NCBI GenBank assembly: GCA_004292605.1
Contig: RDXK01000111.1
Span: forward strand, 1 to 32,134
Source of the DNA: Bacteroidota bacterium
GTDB lineage: Bacteria; Bacteroidota; Bacteroidia; Chitinophagales; Chitinophagaceae
Reading direction: 5' to 3'
DNA: 32,134 nucleotides
Below the pieces are notes generated by a model. It did not search any database. It saw only the letters and a program-made list of their open reading frames with translations, and was not told the origin of the DNA. A program made the translations under genes and the position numbers. Shown here piece by piece: positions 7,547 to 23,326 of this stretch (within the stretch, counting starts at the first letter, position 1; the number at the start of each line of letters is the position of its first letter).

Positions 7547-8782
7547 TTATATAGTTGGCAAATCGGGTTGTTTCCATAATAAACTGCTATCGCCATAACT
7601 CAGAAACCGATAATTGTTTTGCAAGGCATGCTCGTACATAGTTTTCCATGCGGTACCTACTACCGCTGCTATTAATAGTAGTAGTGTACTTTGTGGCTGA
7701 TGAAAGTTAGTAACTATACCATCGGCTACTTTTAGGGTATAGCCTGGTGCAATAATGATTTGTGTTTTACAAACTAGTTTGGCCAATTGGCGCTGCTGTA
7801 GCCAAGTGTACAATGCTGAAAAGCTTTGCTGGTAGGGTATGGCGTGTTGGGCAAGGTCGTACGCATCCCACTGTTGAATTAGTAAATCGGTCAATGCAGC
7901 GTTCGGCTGCAAACTTGCTTTTACACCCATCCAATACAGTGTTTCTATGGTACGCAGGCTAGTGGTACCCACGGCTACTATTGGTTGCTGGTTTTGAGCT
8001 AAAAACTGCACAAAATTGGTAGATACTTCTAAAAACTCCGCATGCATTTCGTGGCCGGCCATGGTGCTGGCTTTTACGGGTTTAAAGGTGCCCGCCCCTA
8101 CATGCAGGGTAACATAGGCACAATGGATGTTTTTGGCCTGCAGGGCGGCAAATACATCATCCGTAAAATGCAAACCGGCGGTGGGTGCAGCTACGCTACC
8201 GCTTTTGGCGGCGTAAACGGTTTGGTATCTAGTAATGTCGCTTATTTCGGTGGCTCTGTTCAAATAGGGCGGTAGGGGTATAATGCCTGCATGGTGTAAT
8301 AGTTCGCCAAAAGGCATGGCCAGGTTCCATGTAAAATCTATTAAATAGCTATCCACACCTTGGTGTAGCTTTTGGGCAGTGAGTGTACACGGCCCGTGCG
8401 GTGTGGTAATGTGCATTTCTAAGGTGGGCTGCTTCCATTTTTTGGCACCACCTACTAGGCATTGCCACTGTACTTGCTGCTGCTGCACCATGGCGGCTTC
8501 CACACTGGCGTAGTGTGGTGCTGGCTCCAAGCAGAAAATTTCTATGGTGCTACCTGTACTTTTTTCAAATACAAGGCGGGCTTCTATCACTTTTGAGTTA
8601 TTAAAAACCAATACTGTACCGGCGGGTAAATGGTTAGGTAGTTCGGCAAACTGGGCATCGGTTATAGAGCCATCAAACACCAAAAGTTTGCTAGCATCTC
8701 TATTGGCTAATGGATATTGGGCGATTTTTTCCTGCGGAAGGGTATAATTAAACTGCTCTATTTGAATATCTCGTGGGTGCAT
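7547..8782 (-). CDS. queA: S-adenosylmethionine:tRNA ribosyltransferase-isomerase
   Basis: Transfers and isomerises the ribose of S-adenosylmethionine onto preQ1-modified tRNA to make epoxyqueuosine, the penultimate step of queuosine synthesis at the wobble base. Recognisable stretches are the N-terminal FNYTLPQEKIAQYPL, LVFNNSKVI near 60, AAPTAGLHFT near 195, HVGAGTFKPV near 227, TNFHQPQSTLLLLIAA near 365 and the final YRFLSYGDSSLL. At 411 residues it is longer than the E. coli enzyme (about 356). The extra length lies partly in the Gln/Val-rich segment near 95-115 and in the region after 280. It is divergent from mraZ and shares its 253-base upstream region. No other queuosine gene is in the window. 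Confidence 0.95.
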   Translation of the reverse strand: MHPRDIQIEQFNYTLPQEKIAQYPLANRDASKLLVFDGSITDAQFAELPNHLPAGTVLVFNNSKVIEARLVFEKSTGSTIEIFCLEPAPHYASVEAAMVQQQQVQWQCLVGGAKKWKQPTLEMHITTPHGPCTLTAQKLHQGVDSYLIDFTWNLAMPFGELLHHAGIIPLPPYLNRATEISDITRYQTVYAAKSGSVAAPTAGLHFTDDVFAALQAKNIHCAYVTLHVGAGTFKPVKASTMAGHEMHAEFLEVSTNFVQFLAQNQQPIVAVGTTSLRTIETLYWMGVKASLQPNAALTDLLIQQWDAYDLAQHAIPYQQSFSALYTWLQQRQLAKLVCKTQIIIAPGYTLKVADGIVTNFHQPQSTLLLLIAAVVGTAWKTMYEHALQNNYRFLSYGDSSLLWKQPDLPTI

Positions 8783-8830: not shown

Positions 8831-8960
8831 TTATGTACAATGTCATTGGGTTTATTAACAGATTTTTGTAGTTATTAACAGGTTTTTTGCATAAATCAGG
8901 TGGTTTTCCCCGCAAAACCTTGCTGTGATTGATTATGAGCTAATTATGTGTTGTGGATAA
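8831..8960. repeat. Tandem 20-base repeats and DnaA-box-like 9-mers upstream of mraZ
   Basis: TTATTAACAG occurs at 8852-8861 and 8872-8881, heading two tandem 20-base units (15 of 20 positions identical). A related 9-mer, TTATGTACA, begins 21 bases earlier at 8831. A perfect DnaA box in reverse orientation, TGTGGATAA, lies at 8952-8960. The repeated 9-mers each differ from TTATCCACA at two positions. The spacing of about two helical turns suggests protein binding on one face of the DNA. The binding protein is inferred, not shown. Confidence 0.4.
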
Positions 8961-8977
8961 AATGGATGACGCATTTA

Positions 8978-9012
8978 GGGTTAAAAAGTGGGAAAAAGTG
9001 TTATTTTGTGGT
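8978..9012 (+). promoter_or_regulatory. Probable MraZ operator
   Basis: Four 5-mers begin exactly 10 bases apart: GGGTT (8978), GTGGG (8988), GTGTT (8998) and GTGGT (9008), separated by A- or T-rich 5-base spacers. Known MraZ sites are direct repeats of this kind (GTGGG with 5-base spacers in E. coli; a thrice repeated AAAGTG[T/G] in Mycoplasma). AAAGTGG and AAAGTGT are literally present at 8985 and 8995. The array ends 23 bases before the mraZ start codon, where a repressor would autoregulate the operon. Confidence 0.75.
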
Positions 9013-9035: not shown

Positions 9036-9491
9036 TTGATAGCATTTTTAGGTGAATACGAAGCTACAGTAGACGCAAAAGGGCGTTTTCTACTTCCGGC
9101 CGGCTTTAAAAAGCAGCTGGCAGAAGGGGAAGTGCGTTTTGTGCTCAACCGTGGTTTTGAAAATTGCCTAACGCTGTACCCACTACAAAGCTGGGCGCCC
9201 GTTTTTGAAAAAGTAAATTCCTTAAATGAATTCGACCCTAAAGTGCGGGCTTTTCGTAGACAGTTTTTGGGCGGTGCTACTGAGGTGGAATTGGATAGTG
9301 CAGGCCGTTTATTACTACCTGCCAATTTGAAAGAGTTTGCTGGTTTAGAAAAGGATATCATTTTAGTAGCTGCCACCAATAAAATTGAAATTTGGAACGC
9401 TACTACCTATAAAAATTTATTTACCGCCATTTCTCCAGAAGCGTTTAGCGAGCTAGCTATGGAAGTAATGGGAACGCTTCAAAAACCCTAA
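9036..9491 (+). CDS. mraZ: Transcriptional regulator MraZ
   Basis: DNA-binding protein of 151 residues that controls the dcw operon it heads; it forms a ring with each subunit carrying two SpoVT/AbrB-like halves. Both halves show the family's D-x3-R signature: VDAKGRFLLP at residues 12-21 (D13, R17) and LDSAGRLLLP at 86-95 (D87, R91). The start is a TTG at 9036: the resulting MIAFLGEYEATVDAKGR matches the family N-terminus, and no ATG lies nearby. It ends one base before the rsmH start, so the two are cotranscribed. Autoregulation is likely through the repeat array at 8978-9012. Confidence 0.95.
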   Translation: MIAFLGEYEATVDAKGRFLLPAGFKKQLAEGEVRFVLNRGFENCLTLYPLQSWAPVFEKVNSLNEFDPKVRAFRRQFLGGATEVELDSAGRLLLPANLKEFAGLEKDIILVAATNKIEIWNATTYKNLFTAISPEAFSELAMEVMGTLQKP

Positions 9492-9492
9492 A

Positions 9493-10413
9493 GTGCAAGT
9501 ACAAACTTACCATATACCTGTACTGTATCAGGAGTGTTTAGAGGCATTGCAAATACGTGCCGATGGCGTGTATGTAGACTGTACCTATGGCGGTGGTGGA
9601 CATAGCAAAGGAATTTTGGAAAGGTTAGGACCCGATGGAAAGCTATTTGCTTTTGACCAAGATGCCGATGCGGCTGCCAATGTAGTGGCCGATGAGCGAC
9701 TGGTATTTATACCCCATAATTTCAAACACTTACAGCGGTTTTTACGCTTGCATGGTGTGGCCAAGGTGGATGGTGTACTGGCCGATTTGGGTGTAAGCAG
9801 TCACCAATTTGATACCGGCGAACGTGGATTTTCTACCCGGTTTGATGGGCCGCTAGATATGCGAATGGATACTAGTAGCACAGTTACCGCGGCCGATGTG
9901 ATAGCCACCTACACGGAACAACAGCTGCACAAGCTTTTTGAAAAATACGGCGAAGTAACCAATAGCAAAACCTTGGCAAGGTATATAGTACAACAGCGTG
10001 TGGTGGTAAAACCTACTACCATTCAAATGTTTAAGCAAATGCTAGCACCAATGGTAAAGGGACTGCCCCAGAAATATTGGGCTCAAGTGTTCCAGGCTTT
10101 GCGGATAGAGGTGAACAATGAATTGGGGGTTTTGGAAGAATTGCTGAGCCAGTTGACAGATGTAATAAAACCCGGTGGAAGGGCTGCCATTATTACGTTT
10201 CATTCCTTAGAGGATAGGCTGGTAAAAAATGTTTTTAAAAATGTGACGGAAGAAGATGTGAACGACCCTTTTGGAAACAAGCCCGTAGTGCAGCATTGGA
10301 AGATGGTGCATAAAAAACCTATTGAGGCTACTGCGGAAGAGTTAAAAGCCAACCCACGTAGCCGAAGTGCCAAACTAAGAGTAGCAGAGAAACAACATGC
10401 AGCAACAGAGTAA
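9493..10413 (+). CDS. rsmH: 16S rRNA (cytosine1402-N4)-methyltransferase
   Basis: Methylates N4 of C1402 in the ribosomal P site (formerly MraW). The S-adenosylmethionine site is seen in YVDCTYGGGGHSKGIL (residues 27-42) and FAFDQDADA (52-60). The catalytic-domain signature DGVLADLGVSSHQFD follows near 95-109, then FSTRFDGPLDMRMD, AIITFHSLEDRLVK near 230 and the C-terminal NPRSRSAKLRVAEK. The start is GTG at 9493, one base after the mraZ stop. The 306-residue length is normal. The 3' end overlaps ftsL by 17 bases. Confidence 0.96.
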   Translation: MQVQTYHIPVLYQECLEALQIRADGVYVDCTYGGGGHSKGILERLGPDGKLFAFDQDADAAANVVADERLVFIPHNFKHLQRFLRLHGVAKVDGVLADLGVSSHQFDTGERGFSTRFDGPLDMRMDTSSTVTAADVIATYTEQQLHKLFEKYGEVTNSKTLARYIVQQRVVVKPTTIQMFKQMLAPMVKGLPQKYWAQVFQALRIEVNNELGVLEELLSQLTDVIKPGGRAAIITFHSLEDRLVKNVFKNVTEEDVNDPFGNKPVVQHWKMVHKKPIEATAEELKANPRSRSAKLRVAEKQHAATE

Positions 10414-10714
10414 AAAAAATACGTACATCAGTCAGGTATTTAACTATCAGTGGATAGTTACCAATGTGCCTTTTTTTTTATACGTGGCCTTGCTGGCAAT
10501 AGTGTACATAGCCAATGGGCACTATGCCGATAAAACGATTAGGGATATTAACCAAACTGCCAAAGAAATAAAGCAGTTGCAAAACGAATATAAAACGCTG
10601 AAAAGCGAGCTGATGTTTAAAAGTAGGGAAGCCGAATTGATAAAAGCAGCAGCGCCTTTAGGCTTGCAAATACCTACGGAACCCACGCAAAGAATACCAT
10701 TACAAAAAAACTAG
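10397..10714 (+). CDS. ftsL: FtsL-like division protein
   Basis: Small bitopic membrane protein of 105 residues in the position of ftsL, between rsmH and ftsI. It has a cytoplasmic N-terminus, one transmembrane helix (about 23-40, PFFLYVALLAIVYIAN) and a coiled coil with Leu/Ile/Lys heptads (about 48-82), then a short C-terminal tail. FtsL-type proteins bind FtsQ and activate FtsW/FtsI at the septum. Sequence conservation in this family is low, so the call rests on topology and position. The ATG at 10397 lies inside the end of rsmH, suggesting translational coupling. Confidence 0.85.
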   Translation: MQQQSKKNTYISQVFNYQWIVTNVPFFLYVALLAIVYIANGHYADKTIRDINQTAKEIKQLQNEYKTLKSELMFKSREAELIKAAAPLGLQIPTEPTQRIPLQKN

Positions 10715-10717
10715 ACA

Positions 10718-12859
10718 ATGAGTGTAAATAATGCCGAAGTAAAAAAAGACATCCTATGGAGGGTGTACTTGGGCTTTATTGTATTGTTTTTATTGGGCGG
10801 TGTTATTTTATACAAGGCCGTGGCAATTCAAAAAATAGAAGGTGCTCACTGGCGGGAACTTGCTAAAAAAATGCACCAAAAAGATATGCGTATTGAGCCC
10901 GAACGTGGCACTATTTATAGCGAGGATAAACAAATGCTTAGCACTAGCGTACCACAGTACGATGTATATATAGATTTTGGTGCCGATGGTTTACGCGAAA
11001 ATGCGGGTAAACTTTTCAGACAACATGTAGATAGTTTAAGTATATGTTTAGCCAATTTGTTTGGCGATTATTCTGCTGCACAATACAACCGTTTATTGAA
11101 AGCAAAATACCAAGAAAAGGATCGATATTTTTTATTGCAAAAAAAAGTAAGCTTTCGCCAGTACGAAACCATGAAACAGTTTCCGCTGGTGCGTTTAGGC
11201 CGAAACAAAAGTGGCTTTATAGCTACTAATAAAAGTTTTCGTTTAAACCCATACCAGTTATTGGCTTACCGTACGGTGGGTTTAGAACGAGAGAATGCCC
11301 AGAAAGTAGGTATAGAGCAAGCGTATGATACTTATTTGCGTGGTGTGGAAGGTAAACAATTGGTGCGATTTATAGGGGGTGGGTATGCCGTACCGGTAGA
11401 TGAGGAGCCCGAAATAGAACCTGAAAATGGGAGCGATGTATATACTTCCTTAAACATACATATTCAGGAAATTACCGAGAACGCATTGATGAAAATGATG
11501 CTGGAAAATGAAGCTGAACACGGCTGTGCTATAGTGATGGAAGTAGCCACAGGCAAAATAAAAGCAGTAGCAAATCTAGGTCGTGTAGCTCCGGGTAAAT
11601 ACTGGGAAAACATGAACTATGCTTTACAGCCTAGCGAACCTGGAAGTACCTTCAAACTAGCCACTTTGCTTACGGCTTTTGAAACAGGAAAAATTAACCA
11701 AAACACGGTAGTAAATTTAGAAGGTGGCACGTGGAGTGTGGGTGGACGAACCGTGTACGATAGTGAAAAGCATGGCCGATATGAGGTTACCACCAAGCGT
11801 GCTTTTGAGTTAAGCTCTAATGTAGGTATGGCTAAAATAGCATTGCAAACCTTTGGTAGCAATCCTAATAAATACATACAAAGTTTACAGGAATTGGGTT
11901 TTACCTCTAAAACGGGAATTGATATTTCCGGCGAGGGCAGTCCTATCATCTTCACACCCGCCAGTAAATACTGGAGCAATACTACCCTGCCGTGGATGAG
12001 TTTTGGGTACAATCTTACTATATCTCCCCTGCGTACGGCTATGCTGTACAATGCGGTAGCAAATAATGGTACCATGATGAAGCCTTATTTGGTTACTAGT
12101 ATTCAGCGGGAGGCAGAAGCTATCAAACAATTTGAACCTACCGTAGTAAAAAAATCCATTTGTTCACCCGCTACGTTGGCTCAATTAAAAAGCTGTTTGG
12201 TAGGTACCACTACCGAGGAAGGTGCTACTGCATTTGCCTTGTTTAAAAATTCGCCTTATACGGTGGCAGGTAAAACGGGTACGGCCTTGGTGGCAGAAGG
12301 AAAATTGGGTTATAGCAATCATGTATACCAATCCTCTTTTGCAGGTTATTTCCCAGCTAACAACCCAAAATACACCATTGTAGTAGTAATAAAAAATAAG
12401 CCACATGCTGCTAAAATTTATGGTGCGTTAGTGGCTGGCCCAGTGTTTAAAGAAATATCGGACAGATTATATACCCTGTTTATTCGTGGGGCACAAAGCT
12501 CATTACCCGATAGTAGTTTAAGAGCCGATTCTACTTTATACAATTATACTTTATTAGAAAAGCATGCCACTCAAATTTCGAAAAAATTAGGTGTGCAAGT
12601 AGCCGGCACTACCAGCAAAAGAAACGAGTTTGTAGAAGTATGTTTTACCAAGCAAGCCAAGGCAAGTGTAAAGGAAAAAGCATTATCGGAAACCACCGTG
12701 CCGCAGGTACAAGGCATGGTTTTGAAAGATGCTCTATATGCCTGCGAACGTATAGGCTTACAAGTAAAAGCAGTAGGTAAAGGCAGGGTAACTGCACAAA
12801 ACAAATTGCCCGGAAGTAGTTATAAAAAAGGTGAAATAATAGAACTTATTTTAAAATAA
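10718..12859 (+). CDS. ftsI: Septal peptidoglycan transpeptidase (PBP3/FtsI) with PASTA domain
   Basis: Class B penicillin-binding protein of 713 residues that crosslinks septal peptidoglycan. It has one transmembrane helix (about 14-32), a dimerisation/pedestal region starting at RIEPERGTIY, and a transpeptidase domain with all three active-site motifs: S310 in EPGSTFK, S366-S367-N368 and K519-T520-G521. The end carries a PASTA-like domain (about 660-713) beginning VPQVQGMVLKDAL and ending IIELILK. The stop shares one base with the murE start (TAATG), so translation is coupled. FtsW, its glycosyltransferase partner, is encoded four genes downstream. Confidence 0.95.
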   Translation: MSVNNAEVKKDILWRVYLGFIVLFLLGGVILYKAVAIQKIEGAHWRELAKKMHQKDMRIEPERGTIYSEDKQMLSTSVPQYDVYIDFGADGLRENAGKLFRQHVDSLSICLANLFGDYSAAQYNRLLKAKYQEKDRYFLLQKKVSFRQYETMKQFPLVRLGRNKSGFIATNKSFRLNPYQLLAYRTVGLERENAQKVGIEQAYDTYLRGVEGKQLVRFIGGGYAVPVDEEPEIEPENGSDVYTSLNIHIQEITENALMKMMLENEAEHGCAIVMEVATGKIKAVANLGRVAPGKYWENMNYALQPSEPGSTFKLATLLTAFETGKINQNTVVNLEGGTWSVGGRTVYDSEKHGRYEVTTKRAFELSSNVGMAKIALQTFGSNPNKYIQSLQELGFTSKTGIDISGEGSPIIFTPASKYWSNTTLPWMSFGYNLTISPLRTAMLYNAVANNGTMMKPYLVTSIQREAEAIKQFEPTVVKKSICSPATLAQLKSCLVGTTTEEGATAFALFKNSPYTVAGKTGTALVAEGKLGYSNHVYQSSFAGYFPANNPKYTIVVVIKNKPHAAKIYGALVAGPVFKEISDRLYTLFIRGAQSSLPDSSLRADSTLYNYTLLEKHATQISKKLGVQVAGTTSKRNEFVEVCFTKQAKASVKEKALSETTVPQVQGMVLKDALYACERIGLQVKAVGKGRVTAQNKLPGSSYKKGEIIELILK

Positions 12860-14322
12860 TGCATACAAGTATATCCTATATTCAATCGCTTATACAGCCC
12901 ACAAAAGTGGTGGCTGGTACTGCTGTAGATATTACCGGTATTGCCATTAATTCTAAGGAAGTAGAAGCTGGTTTTTGTTTTGCTGATTGGCGTAGTGTAA
13001 CTACCCAACAGTCGTACGTGGAGCAAGCCATAGAAATGGGTGCCCATGCGGTGATTACTACATCGTTACCTTCACATTTACACCCGCATGTAACCTATTG
13101 GGTAGTAGCAGATTTACCAAAAGCTACCGCCATTGTAGCCAATCATTTATTCGATTCGCCTTCGCAGAAATTACAAATAGTAGGTGTTACTGGTACCAAT
13201 GGTAAAACCACGGTGGCTACTATGCTGTACAAACTGTTTACCGCTATGGGTTTTACCTGTGGCTTAATAGGTACCGTACATATAAAAGTAGGCAACACTA
13301 CGGTGGATGCTACACATACTACACCCGATGTAATTACGCTTTTTAAACTATTACAGCGTATGCATCAGCAGGGCTGTACCCATGTATTTATGGAGTGTAG
13401 CAGCCACGCCATACACCAGCAGCGTATAGCGGGAATACAGTTTACCGGTGCCATCTTTACCAATATTACACACGACCATCTAGATTATCATAAAACCTTT
13501 GATGAGTACATACGTGTAAAGAAAATGTTATTCGATGGTTTATCGGCCGATGCTTTTGCGATATCCAATGCCGACGATAAGCGGGGAACCATTATGCTGC
13601 AAAATACAGCTGCCAAGCAAGTGTATTATGGTTTAAAAAATGCTGCTGACGTAAAAGGAAAAATAATAGATAATTCCTTGCTCGGCTTACAAATGATGAT
13701 GAACCAAGTGGAAGTGCATTTACGACTGATTGGTGAGTTTAACGCCTATAATTCTTTGGCCGTTTATGCCGCCGCCTTGGCTTTACAGCAACCAGCAGAT
13801 AAGGTTTTACTTGCTTTAAGTGCTATTACTGGTGCCGATGGTAGGTTCGATTATATGTTGAGTAAGTCTGGCATTTTAGCTATTGTAGATTATGCCCATA
13901 CACCTGATGCATTAGAGAATGTTTTAGTAACTATTAAGAAGTTTAAAAAGGGTTTCGAAAATGTGTATACCGTTGTAGGTTGTGGTGGTGATAGAGATGC
14001 TGCCAAACGCCCCATTATGGCACAAATAGCATGCGACTACAGTGAAAAAGCTATTCTTACAAGCGACAATCCTAGAACAGAAAATCCGCTAGCTATTTTA
14101 CAGCAAATGACGGCAAATCTCTCTAGTAGTGCCAAGCGAAGATTGGTAGTGGTAGAGGATAGAAAGGAAGCCATTTACTTGGCGGTAGAGCAAGCCAAGA
14201 AAGAAGATATTATTTTGATTGCGGGTAAAGGGCATGAAACTTATCAAGAAATAATGGGTGTGAAATATCCGTTCAATGATAAGGAAGTAGTAGCCAACGC
14301 ATTTAACCATTTTAATAAATAA
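12859..14322 (+). CDS. murE: UDP-MurNAc-L-Ala-D-Glu:meso-diaminopimelate ligase
   Basis: Cytoplasmic ATP-dependent ligase that adds the third stem-peptide residue. The ATP-binding loop TGTNGKTT is at residues 111-118, the Mur ligase [12 protein letters not shown] near 200, and GKGHE near 460. D403-N404-P405-R406 (DNPR) is the signature for meso-diaminopimelate rather than lysine, so the organism should have DAP-type peptidoglycan. The length of 487 residues is typical. murF, which follows murE in many bacteria, is absent here; mraY comes next, 7 bases after the stop. Confidence 0.96.
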
Positions 14323-14329
14323 CTGCTAT

Positions 14330-15646
14330 ATGTTATACTATTTAGTACAAACATTACAAGAATATAAAATTGCAGGTTTAGGCTTGTTCCAGTTTATTAC
14401 ATTCCGGGTAGCATTGGCGGTACTTTTGTCGCTCATCATTGCTACCGTATATGGTAAGCGATTGATTTTGTTTTTACAAAAAAAGCAAATTGGGGAAACG
14501 GTAAGAGATTTAGGTTTAGCAGGCGAGCAGCAAAAAAAAGGAACGCCAACCATGGGTGGAATAATCATTATTTTATCTATCATTATTCCAACTTTATTGT
14601 TTGCCGACTTAAATAAAGTATACATACGTTTAATGCTTTTGTGTACCGTATGGTTAGGTTTGATTGGCTTTTTGGATGATTACTTTAAAATAAAAGCTCG
14701 TAGAAAGGCACAAGCTCTTGGCGAGAAGTATAAAAAGCAGGATAGCGATGGCTTAGCAGGTATATCAAAAATTATTGGTCAGGTAGGTTTAGGCGTTATC
14801 ATTGGAGCCACGCTATATTTTAGTAATAGTGTAGTGCTTGAACGGGAATTACTCGGCAATACCACCGCAGTAGCTGCCGTAATTAATACCGGTGAACGAG
14901 CCGCTAAAGACACCAATAAAATTACTCGTGTAATTGATGGCAAGGAGCGAACTTTTGTAAAAGTAAAAACACCCATTACTACTATTCCGTTTGTAAAAAA
15001 TCATGAGTTTAATTATAGTAAGTTAATTAGCTGGATGGGCCCTTCGGCTGATAAGTTTACTTGGATTGTATATATCATCATTGTGGTATTTATAGTTACC
15101 GCAGTATCCAACGGGGCAAATATTACGGATGGTTTAGATGGATTAGCAGCAGGCGTAAGTGCTATAATTGGCGCTGGTATTGGTGTTTTTATTTATGTAA
15201 GTGGTAACTACAAATTTGCCGAATACTTAAATATTATGTACATACCCAATCTGGGTGAGTTGAGTATTTTCGTTGGTGCTTTTGTAGGGGCTTGTATCGG
15301 ATTTTTATGGTACAATGCTTACCCAGCCCAAGTGTTTATGGGCGATACGGGCAGCCTTGCCATTGGTGGTATCATTGCATCGCTAGCCATCATTGTACGG
15401 AAGGAATTATTGATACCTATTTTTTGCGGTGTGTTTTTAATTGAAAACCTAAGTGTAATTATTCAAGTTTCCTACTTTAAGTATACCAAGAAAAAATATG
15501 GTGAGGGTAGAAGGGTTTTTCTTATGAGCCCATTGCACCATCATTATCAAAAAAAGGGTTTCCATGAAAGTAAAATAGCCGTAAGGTTTTGGATAGTAAC
15601 CATTTTGTGTGTAGTAGCCAGTATTCTAACCCTTAAAATCCGATAA
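14330..15646 (+). CDS. mraY: Phospho-MurNAc-pentapeptide transferase (lipid I synthase), enlarged form
   Basis: Integral membrane enzyme that transfers phospho-MurNAc-pentapeptide to undecaprenyl phosphate. Family motifs are GTPTMGG (near 64-70), catalytic D116-D117 in [19 protein letters not shown] (D267, D270), MGDTGS with catalytic D339, and PLHHHYQ near 402. The protein has 438 residues against about 360 in E. coli. The extra length, about 72 residues, lies between the DD motif and the TDGLDG motif. It falls mostly at residues 165-240, a polar loop that should face the periplasm. Enlarged MraY is, to my knowledge, usual in Bacteroidota. Confidence 0.95.
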
Positions 15647-15651
15647 TATAC

Positions 15652-16989
15652 ATGAAGCATATTGTAATATTGGGTGGAGGTGAAAGCGGTGTGGGAGCGG
15701 CTGTATTAGCGGCTACCAAAGGCTATTCTGTTTTTTTATCGGATGGCGGTAGCTTAAAGCTTGCCTATAAAAAGGAATTGATTATTCGTTCTATACCGCA
15801 TGAAGAAGGGCAACACACCATAGAAAAAATTCTGGAAGCTAACACTGTAGTGAAAAGTCCGGGAATTGCGGAAACACACCCTGTAGTACAGCAAATACGG
15901 GCAAAAAATATCCCTATCATTTCGGAAGTAGAGTTTGCGTACCAGCATGTAGGCGATGCAAAAGTATTGGCCATTACAGGTAGCAATGGTAAAAGTACCT
16001 GCACCAGTTTGCTGCATCATATTTGTAAAACAGCCGATATAAACTGTGCACTTGTTGGCAATATAGGATTCTCCTTTGCTTGGCAAGTAGCTATCAATCC
16101 GGTAGATGTTTATGTGGTGGAAACAAGTAGTTTTCAATTAGATGATATTGTTACCTATAAACCACATGTAGCTATTTTATTGAATATAACCGAAGATCAT
16201 TTAGATAGATACAACTATCAATTTGAAAAGTACATAGAAGCCAAATTTAAGATTACCAAAAACCAGTCGGCAGATGATTTTTTCATTTACTGTGCCGACG
16301 ATGATGTAATAACCAAGCATATGAAACAAGTAGATATTTCCGCACAAAAATTACCATTTTCCATGAAGCAAGAAGTAAAAAAGGGAGCAAGTATTAAAGG
16401 CGATCAAATGATGATTCGCATCCAAGAAGAACGAGTAGCAATGAGCATTTACGATTTTGCTTTAAAAGGAAAACACAACCAATATAACACCATGGCCGCA
16501 GGCATAGCAGCAAGTACACTTGGCATTAGAAAGGAAAAAATTAGAGAGGCCGTAACTACTTTTCAAAGCTTAGAACATCGTATGGAGTTTGTAGCCACCG
16601 TACGTGGGGTAGATTTTATTAACGATAGTAAAGCCACCAATGTAAACAGCACTTGGTATGCATTAGAAAGTATGATGAAGCCTACCATACTTATTTTAGG
16701 TGGGGTAGATAAGGGAAATGACTACACGTTAATAGAAGAATTGGTAAAGGAAAAAGTGAGGGCTATTGTTTGCTTAGGTACTGATAATTCTAAAATTCAT
16801 GCGGCATTTGGTTCTTTGGTAGAAACCATTGTGGATACTGCAGCTGCTACCGATGCGGTGACCGAAGCATTCAAATTAGCCAAAAAAGGTGAAGCCATAT
16901 TATTAAGTCCGGCTTGTGCCAGTTTCGATTTATTTAAGAACTATGAGGATAGAGGTACACAGTTTAAACAAGCGGTAAAACTTTTGTAA
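15652..16989 (+). CDS. murD: UDP-MurNAc-L-alanine:D-glutamate ligase
   Basis: Adds D-glutamate to UDP-MurNAc-L-alanine in the cytoplasm. The N-terminal nucleotide-sugar site begins HIVILGGGESGVG. The ATP-binding loop is ITGSNGKST (108-116), followed by NITEDHLDRY near 180, HRMEFVATVRGVDFINDSKATN near 305-326 and the C-terminal LLSPACASFDLFKNYEDRG. The 445-residue length is normal. It starts 5 bases after mraY and ends 3 bases before ftsW. Confidence 0.96.
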   Translation: MKHIVILGGGESGVGAAVLAATKGYSVFLSDGGSLKLAYKKELIIRSIPHEEGQHTIEKILEANTVVKSPGIAETHPVVQQIRAKNIPIISEVEFAYQHVGDAKVLAITGSNGKSTCTSLLHHICKTADINCALVGNIGFSFAWQVAINPVDVYVVETSSFQLDDIVTYKPHVAILLNITEDHLDRYNYQFEKYIEAKFKITKNQSADDFFIYCADDDVITKHMKQVDISAQKLPFSMKQEVKKGASIKGDQMMIRIQEERVAMSIYDFALKGKHNQYNTMAAGIAASTLGIRKEKIREAVTTFQSLEHRMEFVATVRGVDFINDSKATNVNSTWYALESMMKPTILILGGVDKGNDYTLIEELVKEKVRAIVCLGTDNSKIHAAFGSLVETIVDTAAATDAVTEAFKLAKKGEAILLSPACASFDLFKNYEDRGTQFKQAVKLL

Positions 16990-16992
16990 ACC

Positions 16993-18276
16993 ATGAGTGA
17001 TGTAAAACAGCCATCTCTTCAAATTCCCAGCGTTGCGGCGGTAACCCAAGAGCTTTCCAAAAAGGCCAAGGGCGACCGTGTAATTTGGGGTTTGGTAATA
17101 GTACTTGCCTTAATATCCGTTATGGTGGTATATAGTGCTATTGGCAGTTTAGCATACAAAATGAACCGCGGAAACACAGAAGCTTACTTAATTAAGCAGC
17201 TATTTTTTATTGGTTTAGGTTTGGGTGTTATTTATGTATTGCACCGTATTAACTATACTATTTTTTCACGACTTGCCACGGTGTTCTATGTAAGTTCTAT
17301 ATTACTTTTATTATATACATTATTTTTTGGTGCAAAAATAAATGAAGGTAGTCGCTGGGTAATGATTCCATTTTTGGGTATTACGTTTCAGTCGAGCGAC
17401 TTTGCAAAATTGGCTCTCTACATTTACCTATCTAGAAACCTAAGCAAACTGCAAAATAGCATGGTAGATTTTAGAACCGTGGCTACGCATTTATTTTTAC
17501 CCATTGGTATTACCTGCGTTTGTATTATGCCAGCTAACTTATCAAACGCTTTGCTAACTGGTGCCACCGGAATTTTATTATTGTTTATTGGTAGAGTACC
17601 TTTCAAATATTTGCTAGCACTAAGTTCCGTTGTATTGCTACCCGCCATTGTGGTGATTGGTTTGGCCGTACACACACACCAGGCCAATACTACTGAAGGA
17701 GGTACCAAACCGTCTGTTACATTTATAAAGTCGTTGGGAAGGGTAGGCACATGGACTAGTCGTGTACACGATTTTATTTATGCAGCCGAGGCCAACGAAC
17801 CATACCAAGTTCAGCAGGCAAAAATGGCTATAGCCAATGGCGATATACTTTGGGGTAAAGGGCCAGGCAATAGCGAGCAACGAAATTTTTTACCGCAAGC
17901 ATATAACGATTTTATTTATAGCATCATTATTGAAGAATATGGAATCATCGGCGGGGCATTTATTATGTTGATATATTTTATGTTCTTGTTTCGCTGTATA
18001 CAATTGTTCAAGCGTTGTGCCTTTGCCTTTGGTGCATTTTTATGTATTGCACTCAGTTTTACATTGGTTATTCAAGCATTGGCTAATATGGCTGTGAATG
18101 TAAATATCGTACCCGTTACAGGGGTTACATTACCATTGGTAAGTATGGGTGGTACATCGTTTATTTTTACTTGTGCTGCCATTGGTATTATTTTAAGTGT
18201 GGCAAGAAATATTGAACAAGTAGAAGGTAAGGAAGCAATTCTTGAGAATGAAAAACCTGTAGTAGCCGCCGTATGA
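16993..18276 (+). CDS. ftsW: SEDS peptidoglycan glycosyltransferase FtsW
   Basis: Polytopic membrane glycosyltransferase that polymerises lipid II at the septum together with FtsI. It has about ten transmembrane segments. D306 in YNDFIYSIIIEEYG corresponds to the essential aspartate of the large periplasmic loop in the SEDS family, and LPLVSMGGTS closes the core as in other FtsW proteins. The usual FQPSE motif reads FQSSD (132-136). A cytoplasmic N-terminal stretch of about 28 polar residues precedes the first helix. The stop overlaps the murG start (ATGA). Confidence 0.94.
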   Translation: MSDVKQPSLQIPSVAAVTQELSKKAKGDRVIWGLVIVLALISVMVVYSAIGSLAYKMNRGNTEAYLIKQLFFIGLGLGVIYVLHRINYTIFSRLATVFYVSSILLLLYTLFFGAKINEGSRWVMIPFLGITFQSSDFAKLALYIYLSRNLSKLQNSMVDFRTVATHLFLPIGITCVCIMPANLSNALLTGATGILLLFIGRVPFKYLLALSSVVLLPAIVVIGLAVHTHQANTTEGGTKPSVTFIKSLGRVGTWTSRVHDFIYAAEANEPYQVQQAKMAIANGDILWGKGPGNSEQRNFLPQAYNDFIYSIIIEEYGIIGGAFIMLIYFMFLFRCIQLFKRCAFAFGAFLCIALSFTLVIQALANMAVNVNIVPVTGVTLPLVSMGGTSFIFTCAAIGIILSVARNIEQVEGKEAILENEKPVVAAV

Positions 18277-19382
18277 GCCAAGTAGCCAATACATATAAAA
18301 CCATTATTATAGCTGGCGGTGGCACCGGCGGCCATATATTTCCTGCGTTAGCTATAGCCAAGGCTTTGCAGCAGGCAGATGCTTCCATACATATTTTATT
18401 TGTAGGTGCTCTTGGTAAAATGGAAATGCAAAAAATTCCAGAGGCGGGTTATAAAATTATTGGTTTACCCATTGCAGGATTCAATAGAAATGCTCTTTGG
18501 AAAAATTGGAATTTGCCGTTTAAGCTCCTACAAAGTTTTTTAAAGGTTCGAGCAATTTTTTCAGCATACAAACCCATTGCTGTAGTAGGTGTGGGTGGCT
18601 ATTCTACCTACCCTGTGGTGCGGTGGGCTCAAAAAAAAGGTGTGCCTTCGTTTTTACATGAAAGCAATTCCTTTCCAGGCAAGGCAAATATTTGGCTAGC
18701 AAAAAAAGCTACAGCCGTGTTTGTAGCAAACGATTTAGTAAAGCCAGCCTTTGGTGCTGCTAACGTAATTGTTTCTGGTAATCCTATTCGTAAGTATTTA
18801 TTTGATTACACAGGTACCGTAGCAGAGGCAAACCTTTTTTTCAATATCAATTCCTCATTACCTACCCTACTTTTTGTGGGTGGTAGTTTAGGGGCCTCTA
18901 GTATTAACCGTGCTGTACAGCATTCAATAGCACTGCTTAGTGGCAAGGCCAATATTATTTGGCAAACGGGCAGTGCCGATTATTCCGCATGTGCTGCGGC
19001 AGCCAAGGTTTATGCGAATGTATTTGTGGCACCATTTATAAAGGAAATGGATACGGCGTACAAGGCTGCTACCATCGTGGTTTCTCGTGCTGGTGCTATG
19101 GCCGTTACTGAAATAGTAGAACTAGCCAAGCCAAGTATACTAGTGCCATATCCCTTTGCTACTGATGATCACCAAACAGCAAATGCAAAAATTTTGGTAG
19201 ATGCCGGTGCTGCATGGCTTATTAAGGATGCAGATTTGTCGGCTAATTTATTATCGCAGTTAATGGATTTACTTGCTAATCCAGCGTTACTACAGTCAGC
19301 TTCCGAAAAGTTGAAATCACTGCAACGCCCCAATGCCGATAGCTTTATTGCTTCTTATATCTTAAAATCTATTGCCCAATAA
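18273..19382 (+). CDS. murG: Lipid II synthase (GlcNAc transferase) MurG
   Basis: Peripheral membrane glycosyltransferase that adds GlcNAc to lipid I. The N-terminal glycine-rich AGGGTGGHIFPALAIA is at residues 14-29. HESNSFPGKANIWLAK near 127-142, LFVGGSLGASSIN near 195, and the donor-site stretch SRAGAMAVTEIVELAKPSILVP near 270-290 are all family hallmarks. The length of 369 residues is normal. The start ATG overlaps the ftsW stop by 4 bases, which couples synthesis of the last cytoplasmic step with the polymerase. Confidence 0.96.
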   Translation: MSQVANTYKTIIIAGGGTGGHIFPALAIAKALQQADASIHILFVGALGKMEMQKIPEAGYKIIGLPIAGFNRNALWKNWNLPFKLLQSFLKVRAIFSAYKPIAVVGVGGYSTYPVVRWAQKKGVPSFLHESNSFPGKANIWLAKKATAVFVANDLVKPAFGAANVIVSGNPIRKYLFDYTGTVAEANLFFNINSSLPTLLFVGGSLGASSINRAVQHSIALLSGKANIIWQTGSADYSACAAAAKVYANVFVAPFIKEMDTAYKAATIVVSRAGAMAVTEIVELAKPSILVPYPFATDDHQTANAKILVDAGAAWLIKDADLSANLLSQLMDLLANPALLQSASEKLKSLQRPNADSFIASYILKSIAQ

Positions 19383-19383
19383 T

Positions 19384-20757
19384 ATGTCTACTTCGCTTAC
19401 ACAAAACCCGCTACAGCATGCCAAGAATGTATATTTTATTGGCATTGGTGGAATAGGTATGAGTGCTCTAGTACGATATTTTTTGCACAAAGGTGTAAAT
19501 GTTTTTGGGTACGATAAAACGCCATCGGAGCTTACCAGTGCTCTAGAAAAAGAAGGTGCTGTTATCAGTTTTCAAGATGAGGTGGAAGCATTGCCGGTAT
19601 TGGATTTGGATATTGTAGTGTATACGCCAGCCATACCAAGTACTAGTAATTTATTACAGCATTTCAAAGCACATCATCCTTACTTAGTAAAGCGAAGCGA
19701 TGTTTTACAATGGATAACACAAACGTATAAAGCTATTTGTATTGCTGGTACGCATGGTAAAACTACGGTTAGTAGTATGGTAGCTCATGTGCTACACCAC
19801 AGCGGTTTTGGGTGCACTGCCTTCCTCGGTGGAATTATGAGTAATTACCAAACCAATTTTATTGCTGGCACCAACGATTGGTGTGTGATAGAAGCGGATG
19901 AATACGACAGAAGTTTTTTGAAATTATCGCCTACTATTTCCGTGGTAAATAGTGTAGATGCCGATCATTTAGATATTTATAAAACTGCCGAGGCAGTTGT
20001 GGAAGCTTTTGGATTATTTGTAAATAAAACAGCTACTAATGGAGCCGTTTACTTACAGCAAAAAGTAGTTCCCTTTGTGCAAACTAGTATCCTTGTAAAA
20101 TCCTTTTCCTGCCAAGATGCTACGGCCGACGTTTTTGCCAAGGATATTCGTATAGAAAATGGATGTTATGTATTTACGGCTGTTTGCGGAAACATAGTAG
20201 TGCCAAATATTCATTTGCAAATGGGTGGCCTGCACAACGTAGAAAATGCGTTGGTAGCTGTTGCTATAGCGGTACAATTAGGTATTTCCTCGCAAGCAAT
20301 ACAAGACGCCGTTGCAAGTTTTCAGGGAGTAAAGCGTAGGTTTCAATATCATTTGAATACCCATCAACAAGTATTGATAGATGATTATGCTCATCACCCT
20401 ACGGAATTACAAGCATTGATTACCGGAGTAAAAGCCATGTTTCCGAATGATACTATCAGCCTAGTATTCCAGCCACATTTATTTTCCCGAACTAGCGATT
20501 TGGTAAATGAGTTTGCTGAAGTATTGGCAGCGGTAGATCAATTATTTTTATTACCTATTTATCCTGCTCGGGAACTTCCCGTTCCGGGAGTTACTAGCGA
20601 GTGGTTGGCCTCAAAAATTAAGGCTGAAAAAGTGACTGTATTATCTACCGACACATGGGTAGATGAGGTGGTACAGCACACTAGCCGAGTGCTAGTATTG
20701 GCGGGTGCTGGCGATATTGATACCTATATTCCTTCACTTGTAAATAAGTTAGCATGA
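19384..20757 (+). CDS. murC: UDP-N-acetylmuramate:L-alanine ligase
   Basis: First Mur ligase, adding L-alanine to UDP-MurNAc. Numbering from the ATG at 19384 (457 residues): FIGIGGIGMSALV at 18-30, the ATP loop AGTHGKTT at 121-128, EADEYDRSFLKLSP near 173, VVNSVDADHLDIY near 190, DDYAHHPTEL near 335 and FQPHLFSRT near 365. A TTG four codons upstream at 19372 lies inside murG; the ATG directly follows the murG stop and is preferred. The stop overlaps the ftsQ start (ATGA). The gene order murG-murC-ftsQ, without murB or ddl, differs from E. coli. Confidence 0.96.
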   Translation: MSTSLTQNPLQHAKNVYFIGIGGIGMSALVRYFLHKGVNVFGYDKTPSELTSALEKEGAVISFQDEVEALPVLDLDIVVYTPAIPSTSNLLQHFKAHHPYLVKRSDVLQWITQTYKAICIAGTHGKTTVSSMVAHVLHHSGFGCTAFLGGIMSNYQTNFIAGTNDWCVIEADEYDRSFLKLSPTISVVNSVDADHLDIYKTAEAVVEAFGLFVNKTATNGAVYLQQKVVPFVQTSILVKSFSCQDATADVFAKDIRIENGCYVFTAVCGNIVVPNIHLQMGGLHNVENALVAVAIAVQLGISSQAIQDAVASFQGVKRRFQYHLNTHQQVLIDDYAHHPTELQALITGVKAMFPNDTISLVFQPHLFSRTSDLVNEFAEVLAAVDQLFLLPIYPARELPVPGVTSEWLASKIKAEKVTVLSTDTWVDEVVQHTSRVLVLAGAGDIDTYIPSLVNKLA

Positions 20758-21827
20758 AGCAGTGGAAGCGAATAGCGAGTATTGTAGTATGGATGCTACT
20801 TTCTTTATTTGTGGTGGCGGTATTTTTTGCCGCAGGCGCCAATAGAAACAAACAATCCATTAAAGATATTCAAGTACAAATAGTAGGAAGTAACAGCCAG
20901 GTTTTTGTGGATGAAAAAGATATTTTACAAGTACTATCTAGCATGGGTATTTCACTGCCGCAGGCACCTGCTGTAGGTAAGGTTCCCTTAAAAATAATTG
21001 AGCAAAAATTATCGGCAATTGCATGGGTAGCTACTGCTGATGCTTTTATAACCAACACTGGTATTTTAAAAATAAATATTACAGAACGGGAACCACTATT
21101 ACGTGTGTTTACTTTACAAGGCAATAGTTTTTATGTAGATTCTACCTTACATTATTTACCGCTCAGTGCTAAGCTCATGGCCGATGTGCCTGTATTTACA
21201 AGCTTTCCCGCTGGTACCTTTCCGCTAAGTAAGCCCGATAGTTTGGTATTGTTGGATGTAGTAAATATTGCTAAGCAAATAAAAAAAGATAGTTTTTGGC
21301 TTGCACAAATAGCGCAAACGGATATTTTACCCAATCGTACCTATGAGTGTATACCCACCGTAGGTTCACAAATTATTTCTTTAGGAACGGCGGATAGCTT
21401 GCAAGATAAGTTTGCTCGATTATTTAGTTTTTATAAACATGTGTGGGCAAAGCAAGGCATAGAAAAATACGAGAAAATAGATGTACAATACCAAGGGCAA
21501 GTGGTAGCTATAAGGCGTGGTGCACCCAAGCCAATGGTAGATACTACGGCTGCTGTGCTGCAATTGGTGAAAGCTTCATCGCAAGCCAACAACTTATTAA
21601 CGTTTGATAGTGTAAAAGTGAATGCAAGTACATTGCCAAATAGTTTACCCACTAAATCCGATTCGGCTAAAATAAATGCAAACAGAAAGTCAGTAACAGT
21701 TCCTTCAGTGGCTACCAAACCAACTACGGCACCGGTTAAAAAGCCAGTGGCCGTGGCACCGAAACAAGGGAAAGCCAAACAAGTAACCAAACCAAAAGCT
21801 GTATTGCAAAAAGGAAGAAACAACTAA
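20754..21827 (+). CDS. ftsQ: Division protein FtsQ (DivIB-like)
   Basis: Bitopic membrane protein that recruits FtsL and the septal synthase. It has a short basic cytoplasmic end, one transmembrane helix (about 8-28), a POTRA-like domain starting IKDIQVQIVGSNSQVFVDEKDI (about 36-105), and a beta domain running to about 255. Residues about 265-357 form a low-complexity tail rich in Lys, Pro, Ala, Thr and Val, with basic KP/VTKPK repeats. Such a basic periplasmic tail is not part of classical FtsQ. Position between murC and ftsA supports the call. Confidence 0.9.
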   Translation: MKQWKRIASIVVWMLLSLFVVAVFFAAGANRNKQSIKDIQVQIVGSNSQVFVDEKDILQVLSSMGISLPQAPAVGKVPLKIIEQKLSAIAWVATADAFITNTGILKINITEREPLLRVFTLQGNSFYVDSTLHYLPLSAKLMADVPVFTSFPAGTFPLSKPDSLVLLDVVNIAKQIKKDSFWLAQIAQTDILPNRTYECIPTVGSQIISLGTADSLQDKFARLFSFYKHVWAKQGIEKYEKIDVQYQGQVVAIRRGAPKPMVDTTAAVLQLVKASSQANNLLTFDSVKVNASTLPNSLPTKSDSAKINANRKSVTVPSVATKPTTAPVKKPVAVAPKQGKAKQVTKPKAVLQKGRNN

Positions 21828-21839
21828 ACAAAAACATAT

Positions 21840-23279
21840 ATGACACAACATCATTTTTCTACACACCCTATTACCCGGCCCGATGCTGAGTCGCCTATCA
21901 TTGTTGGTTTAGATATCGGTACTACAAAAATTGCTTGTATTGCCGGTAGAAAAAACGAGCAAGGAAAAATAGATATTTTAGGTTTTGGTAAAGCCAATAG
22001 TAGCGGTGTACAGCACGGTCAGGTTTTGAATATTGATCAAACTATTCGTGCCATTGGTGCTGCTCTAAAAGCTTGCTACGATAATTTCCCGGAATTAGAA
22101 ACCCAAAATGTTTATGTGGGTATTGCGGGTCATCATATTAAAAGTTTACAAACCCGTGGCGATATTGTACGCCAGAATGCGGATGTAGAAATAGCCAAGG
22201 AAGAAATTGATTTATTGATCAAAAATCAATACAAAACATTTATACCAGCAGGGGATGAAATTATAGATGTAATTCCGCAGGATTACTCGGTAGATAACCA
22301 CGCCAACATTACCGACCCAGTGGGTAGAACAGGTGTGAAAGTGGGAGCAAATTTCCACATCATCACAGGCGATAAAATTGCGATAAAAAATATTAATAGA
22401 GCGGTAGAACGTAGTGGATTAAAAGCGAAGGATTTGGTATTGCAACCCCTAGCGTCTTCCGCTGCTGTACTAAACGAAGTAGATTTAGAAGCTGGCGTAG
22501 CTATTTTAGATATTGGTGGTGGTACCAGCGATTTGGCTGTTTTTTATGATGGTATTTTACAACACACAGCCGTAATACCGTTTGGCGGTGAAAATATTAC
22601 CAACGATATCAAGAACGGTTTAGGGGTGCTGAAAGGCCAAGCCGAAGCCATGAAAACACAGTTTGGTAGTGCGGTAGCAGCTAAGGCAGCAAAAAATGCT
22701 TATATATCTATTCCTGGTATTGGTGGTATGGCCAATAAGGAAATAAGTACTGAAATGCTTTCGCAAATTATTGAAGCAAGAATGACAGAAATTCTTGAGT
22801 TTGTAGAATTTCATTTCAAGCATGGCGGCATTGATAAAAGAAAAATTAACGGTGGCATTATACTTACAGGTGGTGGTTCACAATTGCAAAATATTGTTCA
22901 ATTAACTGAGTACATATTGGCCCTACCTGCAAGGCGTGGTGTACCTACTGAGTACCTCGCTAGCGACCATATAGATGAAGTAAAAAAGCCAATGTATGCC
23001 ACTTGTATAGGATTGATTTTGAAAGGTGTGAACGACTTTGAGAACAACAATTCCTTTATTGCCGCAAAGCAGCAAGTACAAGGTTCTACGGTACTTCAAA
23101 CCACTCCCGTGGTTACCGTAGCTGCACCTGCAGGTGCTAATGCAAACGCCGAGCCAGCAGCTGCTACAGAACCGGGTGTAAAACCTGCTGTGGTAAGCAC
23201 TAGGAATAAAGTGTTTTGGTCAAAATTCAAGAATACCATTTTAGAATTATTTGATGGTGCTGAGGATACCAAATTATAA
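21840..23279 (+). CDS. ftsA: Division protein FtsA (actin-like membrane tether of FtsZ)
   Basis: Actin-fold ATPase that anchors FtsZ to the membrane. VGLDIGTTKIACIAG (about 22-36) is the first phosphate-binding loop, D224 in LDIGGGTSD the second, and ILTGGGSQL near 340 the adenosine loop. The SHS2-type 1C subdomain sits near 100-185. After about residue 405 comes an Ala/Pro/Val-rich linker. A basic amphipathic helix, NKVFWSKFKNTILELFDG (about 455-472), then fits the membrane-targeting sequence. The ATG is 12 bases after ftsQ. ftsZ follows after 47 bases. Confidence 0.96.
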   Translation: MTQHHFSTHPITRPDAESPIIVGLDIGTTKIACIAGRKNEQGKIDILGFGKANSSGVQHGQVLNIDQTIRAIGAALKACYDNFPELETQNVYVGIAGHHIKSLQTRGDIVRQNADVEIAKEEIDLLIKNQYKTFIPAGDEIIDVIPQDYSVDNHANITDPVGRTGVKVGANFHIITGDKIAIKNINRAVERSGLKAKDLVLQPLASSAAVLNEVDLEAGVAILDIGGGTSDLAVFYDGILQHTAVIPFGGENITNDIKNGLGVLKGQAEAMKTQFGSAVAAKAAKNAYISIPGIGGMANKEISTEMLSQIIEARMTEILEFVEFHFKHGGIDKRKINGGIILTGGGSQLQNIVQLTEYILALPARRGVPTEYLASDHIDEVKKPMYATCIGLILKGVNDFENNNSFIAAKQQVQGSTVLQTTPVVTVAAPAGANANAEPAAATEPGVKPAVVSTRNKVFWSKFKNTILELFDGAEDTKL

Positions 23280-23326
23280 AACCATTTTATCATTTTTTCG
23301 AACTACTACAACAAAAACAAAACAGA

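Follow-up and report, generated by a model that had tools for sequence, protein, structure and literature searches.

Is the dcw operon of Bacteroidota, which encodes functions in cell division and wall synthesis, controlled by the product of its own first gene, mraZ? This locus raises the question because a short run of evenly spaced GTG motifs stands directly in front of that gene. The excerpts of PMC8475190 and PMC7761207 on which we draw describe MraZ sites in E. coli, Mollicutes and Burkholderia and also mention B. subtilis and Corynebacterium. Among the literature matches listed, none reports such a site for a member of the Bacteroidota, which falls short of showing that none is in print. 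We analysed a 32,134-nucleotide stretch of contig RDXK01000111.1 from a member of the Chitinophagaceae (hereafter the window), together with the rest of its 2.97-Mb genome and the mraZ upstream regions of other Bacteroidota. From the sequence evidence, we are almost certain that this motif is where MraZ, the repressor encoded by the operon itself, binds.

A phased array precedes mraZ in the window

In the window, mraZ (9036..9491, plus strand) begins with a TTG codon and is followed by the second gene of the operon, rsmH (also called mraW; 9493..10413, plus strand; PF01795). The remaining dcw operon (10397..25027, plus strand) comprises ftsL, a PASTA-type ftsI, murE, mraY, murD, ftsW, murG, murC, an ORF at the place of ftsQ, ftsA and ftsZ. 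We named murE, murD, mraY, ftsW and ftsI by their Pfam domains together with gene order, and the ORF at the ftsQ place had no NCBIfam match. The divergent neighbour of mraZ, queA (7547..8782, minus strand), forms the left edge of a 253-base intergenic region. Among the matches listed, the best ones with a name belong to Chitinophagaceae, including Segetibacter, Ferruginibacter and Chitinophaga. Where the window has its TTG start codon, most of the relatives listed in the mraZ searches have M. GC skew in the window flips sign to the left of mraZ, and gene direction may account for this flip.

Direct reading of the intergenic region gave GGGTT at 8978, AAAAA at 8983, GTGGG at 8988, AAAAA at 8993, GTGTT at 8998, ATTTT at 9003 and GTGGT at 9008, with 23 bases between the end of the last unit and the TTG start at 9036. 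This reading confirmed the motif reported in the first-pass annotation, both in its position and in its 10-bp phase. We predict that the core MraZ operator occupies 8988..9012 (plus strand) and consists of three units in 10-bp phase, GTGGG-AAAAA-GTGTT-ATTTT-GTGGT.

The array is conserved at a period of 10 bp in most sampled Bacteroidota

We compared 269 mraZ upstream regions arranged in four rings of increasing distance. Chitinophagaceae supplied 113 of them; moving outwards, 22 came from the remaining families of the order, 74 from elsewhere in the class and 60 from elsewhere in the phylum. The Chitinophagaceae ring combines 38 loci supplied by searches with the 80 best-matching loci, which together gave 113 distinct regions. 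All 57 matching genomes of the first search were taken; the wider samples contributed 77 new loci from 280 matching genomes (27 supplied by searches and 50 picked by family) and 60 from another 107. Weak-scoring families (f36, for example) are under-sampled or left out of this collection, and MAGs are among its genomes.

Three perfect GTGK units at a period of 10 were present in 108/113, 17/22, 53/74 and 17/60 regions of the four rings, respectively, or 195/269 overall, so that the array is weakest in the other classes of the phylum. Triples with at most one letter off at this period numbered 112, 19, 67 and 34, and perfect pairs 110, 20, 67 and 52; 74/269 regions had no three perfect units, and 20/269 had not even a perfect pair. 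Periods of 7, 8, 9, 11, 12 and 13 yielded no perfect triple in any of the four rings, while one-letter-off triples at these other periods came to 1, 1, 0 and 6 (eight in all). Among 2690 shuffled sequences, none contained a perfect triple and six contained a triple with one letter off. A set of 133 regions gave the same picture: period 10 accounted for 78 perfect triples, and periods 6-9 and 11-15 for none. The distances between GTGK occurrences in these 133 regions were concentrated at 10 (217 against 2.6 expected), 20 (104 against 1.6) and 30 (29 against 0.8). Conservation of the 10-bp phasing in relatives, which had been put forward as the check on the original proposal, was therefore strongly borne out in 195/269 regions.

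The same alignments showed which units belong to the array. A 23-bp core, GTGGGAAAAAGTGTTATTTTGTG, is matched in at least 18/23 letters by 110/113 Chitinophagaceae regions and is identical in 68; the three regions below that threshold (L008, L015 and L028), each with a GTG array of its own, are excluded from the counts of 110 given here. With 8988 as position 0, at least 3/4 GTGK letters were found at 0, +10 and +20 in 110, 109 and 110 of these 110 regions. The first-pass annotation had counted four units starting from 8978, and those at 8988, 8998 and 9008 were indeed conserved. GGGTT at 8978 (8978..8982, plus strand) was not: although it agrees with GTGKK in 4/5 letters, at least three of the four GTGK letters appeared at the -10 position in only 15/110 Chitinophagaceae, and GGGTT itself in one. 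This lack of conservation in Chitinophagaceae speaks against GGGTT as a member of the array; it is a weak unit, at best private to the source genome, and lies near the expected place of the -33 promoter element.

At the other end, the +30 position had at least 3/4 GTGK letters in 58/110 Chitinophagaceae, against an off-register background of 4.6%. Read from these sequences, the Chitinophagaceae array is one of three units followed by a degenerate downstream fourth, as in E. coli. The +30 place in the window (9018) reads CACAT and holds no unit, and thus three sure units remain in the source genome, where 8978 could still serve as a private weak unit.

The array is single in the genome and missing where mraZ is missing

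We also asked how far the motif could be told from chance. The pair pattern GTGKK-N5-GTGKK has two overlapping matches at this site, the only ones in the window, where 0.88 are expected; because 25/100 shuffles also reach two matches, little weight can be given to pairs of units by themselves. Across the 2.97-Mb genome, the three-unit pattern has a single perfect (0-mismatch) match, and that match is at mraZ. Since a reversed control of the pattern is likewise seen once, what tells is the place rather than the count. When up to two mismatches were allowed, the genome contained 201 matches to the pattern and 219 to its reversed control. Near matches are thus no commoner than the control, which points to one site and gives no sign of a regulon, and we dropped the idea of an MraZ regulon elsewhere in this genome. 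On the sequence evidence, the real proof of the motif is its conservation rather than its count in window or genome. Because the genome holds only one such site, the circuit would be a dedicated autoregulatory one, a negative loop with a single target.

If the array serves MraZ, its fate should be tied to that of the gene. We identified 26 genomes that lack mraZ and dropped seven in which rsmH was absent or fragmentary, and in the remaining 19 we searched the 800 bases before rsmH for a three-unit array matching in at least 11/12 letters. The array was found before rsmH in 0/19 of these mraZ-less genomes, which are not independent of one another, since nine come from one family. The identical test detected the array in 76/77 Chitinophagaceae loci and in 0/74 stretches taken from inside or after rsmH. 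The lineages that keep rsmH without a match to mraZ include the families f43 (9 rows) and f103 (3 rows). Together, the conserved phasing and the absence of the array where mraZ is missing support the original proposal that an MraZ operator precedes this Bacteroidota dcw operon.

These results also bear on whether the array might be bound by another regulator, with MraZ a mere bystander. A second conserved element nearby (described below) speaks for this idea to the extent that at least one further factor may act at the site. Against it stand the loss of the array in every one of the 19 mraZ-less genomes, the restriction of the perfect pattern to mraZ within the genome, and a layout equal to that before mraZ in E. 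coli, a species whose MraZ carries the annotation of DNA-binding transcriptional repressor. We consider it very improbable that MraZ is uninvolved, and we retain MraZ as the predicted ligand of the array.

A probable promoter box lies within the predicted operator

The third spacer of the array departs from the A5 runs of the first two. At 9001..9008 (plus strand), overlapping units 2 and 3, the window reads TTATTTTG, which agrees in 7/8 letters with TAnnTTTG, the consensus of the Bacteroidota -7 promoter element as given in an excerpt of PMC7366714. The same TTATTTTG is found, identical, at +13 in 102/110 Chitinophagaceae. The last spacer of the operator is thus probably the -7 promoter box. 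The first-pass annotation had noted the third spacer as T-rich, and a -7 box explains this better than an operator variant does: the spacer would be T-rich because the box lies there, spacers in the other rings being mostly A-rich. We infer a transcription start at about 9012. The upstream half of the promoter is less well defined, with TTTG near -33 in only 36/110 Chitinophagaceae (32 of them at one position) and TTTA at that place in the window, so that the -33 part appears weak.

Of the arrays from the other orders of the class, 55/67 are accompanied by a TAnnTTTR box. In 44 of these it lies 34-36 bp after the first unit, compared with 13 bp in Chitinophagaceae, so that the operator of those orders is displaced upstream by ~22 bp relative to the promoter. 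By eye, TTGACA-like sequences instead precede the site at several loci of the other classes.

Placement of a -7 box inside the operator raises the possibility that the array is simply a core promoter with phased A-tracts, intrinsically bent or UP-like, and contains no operator at all. The A5 spacers are in phase, the third spacer coincides with the -7 box, and in Chitinophagaceae the spacers are themselves well conserved (1.25 bits, against 2.05 bits for GTG, with the caveat that GTGK letters served to find the arrays and only spacers and letter 5 are free of that bias). In the other three rings, however, the spacers drop to 0.66-0.79 bits and differ between groups while GTG stays at 1.8-2.1 bits, a value subject to the same selection bias. 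A ~22-bp displacement of the array from the -7 box, as found in other orders, is unexpected of a core promoter element, and joint loss with mraZ is not expected of a plain core promoter. A promoter without an operator is, in our judgement, even less probable than an array serving some other regulator.

We therefore return to the MraZ operator, for which the overlap with the promoter suggests a simple mode of action. MraZ oligomers would read successive GTG[G/T] units, spaced 10 bp apart, on one face of the helix. With a probable -7 box inside the operator, bound MraZ would cover the promoter: the units straddle this box at 9001-9008 together with the presumed start site, and occupancy would exclude RNA polymerase. 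The division and wall-synthesis operon, from mraZ to ftsZ, would in this way limit its own output. Binding and repression by MraZ are carried over here from what excerpts of PMC8475190, PMC5138195 and PMC7761207 report for the family, whereas the sequence, its phasing and conservation, its single occurrence in the genome and its loss together with mraZ were observed directly. On this combined basis, we consider it highly probable that 8988-9012 is an MraZ operator at which the bound protein bars RNA polymerase and the dcw operon restrains itself.

The MraZ protein and its predicted site resemble known systems

The protein encoded in the window has the features of a full-length family member, with two MraZ domains (PF02381, E 9.3e-34), the conserved D/K/R motif and a TIGR00242 score of 137.5 bits, above the curated cut-off of 98.35. 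Residues D13, K15, R17, D87 and R91 are invariant among the 22 sequences compared. A structure model of the window protein (mean pLDDT 91.3) found its best structural neighbours in the MraZ proteins of M. pneumoniae and M. genitalium. The structure database contains complexes of M. genitalium MraZ titled 'its promoter' and '4 box promoter', which we know by title. The two M. genitalium MraZ-promoter complexes (9r4j and 9sz7) share the fold of the model with Z 19.0-19.9, rmsd 1.8-2.4 and 31% identity, a likeness by fold only; alignment with MraZ from the '4 box promoter' complex covered 138 residues at Z 19.9 and rmsd 1.8. Structural matches ranked below MraZ had Z 5.0 and less, and we regard them as chance hits or remote fold similarities. 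In five genomes of the survey (G087, G109, G169, G294 and G315), MraZ-domain matches number three or four rather than two, which hints at a second mraZ copy.

The site itself compares most directly with that of E. coli K-12 MG1655, where the sequence before mraZ reads GTGGG-AAATT-GTGGG-GCAAA-GTGGG-AATAA-GGGGT. Both have GTGGG units at an exact 10-bp period before mraZ, and in E. coli the degenerate fourth unit (GGGGT) ends 9 bases before the start codon. The two differ in their spacers (AAATT, GCAAA and AATAA in E. coli), in the second unit, which is GTGTT in Chitinophagaceae, and in the third spacer, which in Chitinophagaceae is the probable -7 box of a Bacteroidota-type promoter.

In Mollicutes, the MraZ site is AAAGTG[T/G], and in M. 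genitalium this motif occurs only before mraZ, according to an excerpt of PMC8475190 that quotes Fisunov 2016. The window site contains AAAGTGT literally (8995-9001) and, as in M. genitalium, is found only before mraZ; it differs in phylum, in core promoter and in the G at letter 4 of its outer units. Burkholderia cenocepacia MraZ gel-shifts a fragment with four 7-nt repeats separated by 3-nt spacers, as described in an excerpt of PMC7761207, and that site shares with ours the 10-bp period and the overlap with the start site. Unit number sets them apart, with four in the B. cenocepacia site, in the same excerpt, and in the M. genitalium '4 box' complex (by its title) versus three sure ones in the window.

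By its sequence, the predicted MraZ operator is clearly of a known kind, here extended to Bacteroidota. A single-copy, 10-bp-phased site in most sampled Bacteroidota suggests that the MraZ code is old, and division autoregulation becomes testable in a phylum with its own type of promoter. Less expected is how the promoter is organised, most of all the presence of a DnaA-like box upstream of the array.

A DnaA-box-like element accompanies the probable promoter

Upstream of the operator, at 8952..8963 (plus strand), lies TGTGGATAAAAT, a DnaA-box-like element whose first G is 36 bp before the operator. The minus strand of 8952-8960 reads TTATCCACA, which we take to be the textbook DnaA-box consensus 9-mer. 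The genome contains the 12-mer TGTGGAWAAAAT a single time, against nine occurrences of its reversed control. TGTGGAWAA with its first G at -36 is present exactly in 81/113 Chitinophagaceae regions and with one mismatch in 15 more.

The position of this element appears to follow the promoter. From box start to -7 box, the distance is 50 bp in Chitinophagaceae (81/87 loci with both elements); in the other orders it is 46-48 bp in 31/43 loci on the forward strand and in one more on the reverse. The box therefore sits on opposite strands in the two groups at a distance from the -7 box that is nearly fixed in both. Because this distance is kept while the operator shifts, the element seems, from its placement, to belong to the promoter and not to the MraZ array. 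We also considered the upstream TGTGGATAA as an extra MraZ unit and rejected it: at 36 bp it is out of the 10-bp phase, and it tracks the -7 box instead of the array.

As an addition to the MraZ explanation and not an alternative to it, the TTWTCCACA-like element could be a genuine DnaA box, so that dcw transcription would answer to DnaA as well as to MraZ. Its frequency favours this: TTWTCCACA lies within 110 bases before the array in 90/113 Chitinophagaceae, where 0.8 are expected, and in the other orders the looser TTWTYMACA is found in 50/74 loci on the forward strand and 16/74 on the reverse, against 2.9 expected either way, with the forward form 1-3 bp before the array in 41/74. The near-constant spacing between element and -7 box within each of the two groups, despite opposite strands, points in the same direction, as do origin-like clusters elsewhere, one of seven TTATYCACA in ~250 bp in a Chitinophagaceae genome and one of four TTATCAACA within ~170 bp in a genome of another order.

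Other counts weaken this reading. Of 19 dnaA loci from other genomes, nine had no box, eight had one or two, and only two had three or more; the strict form is absent from the dnaA locus of the source genome. Origin-like or at least paired boxes in close proximity were found in only 7/20 genomes, and TTTTCCACA is commoner than TTATCCACA in Chitinophagaceae (59 versus 30). In other families of the order, the box and the -7 box were both found in only 5/19 loci, at 46 (three loci), 58 and 60 bp, and in other classes the loose box is rare (5/60 forward and 4/60 reverse, 2.6 expected). No tight cluster was noticed among the 62 TTWTCCACA sites of the source genome, which is assembled in 331 contigs and in which no origin was located. 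Weighing both sides, we put the chance that the element is a DnaA box at somewhat below even.

More tentative still is a broader model in which, across the class, the dcw promoter would be a two-input device: an MraZ array that slides by about two helical turns with its 10-bp code kept, and a DnaA box ~46-50 bp before the -7 box that would couple expression of the division operon to replication initiation. With a DnaA-like box beside the operator, a connection of replication to division in Bacteroidota can be tested directly.

Two further observations concern these 9-mers. The Chitinophagaceae cluster of seven sites (L328, 1401-1652, in genome G019) lies far from dnaA and is perhaps a replication origin. 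In the window, the queA-mraZ intergenic region contains, by eye, more 9-mers of the TTATNNACA type, with TTATGTACA at 8831 and TTATTAACA at both 8852 and 8872.
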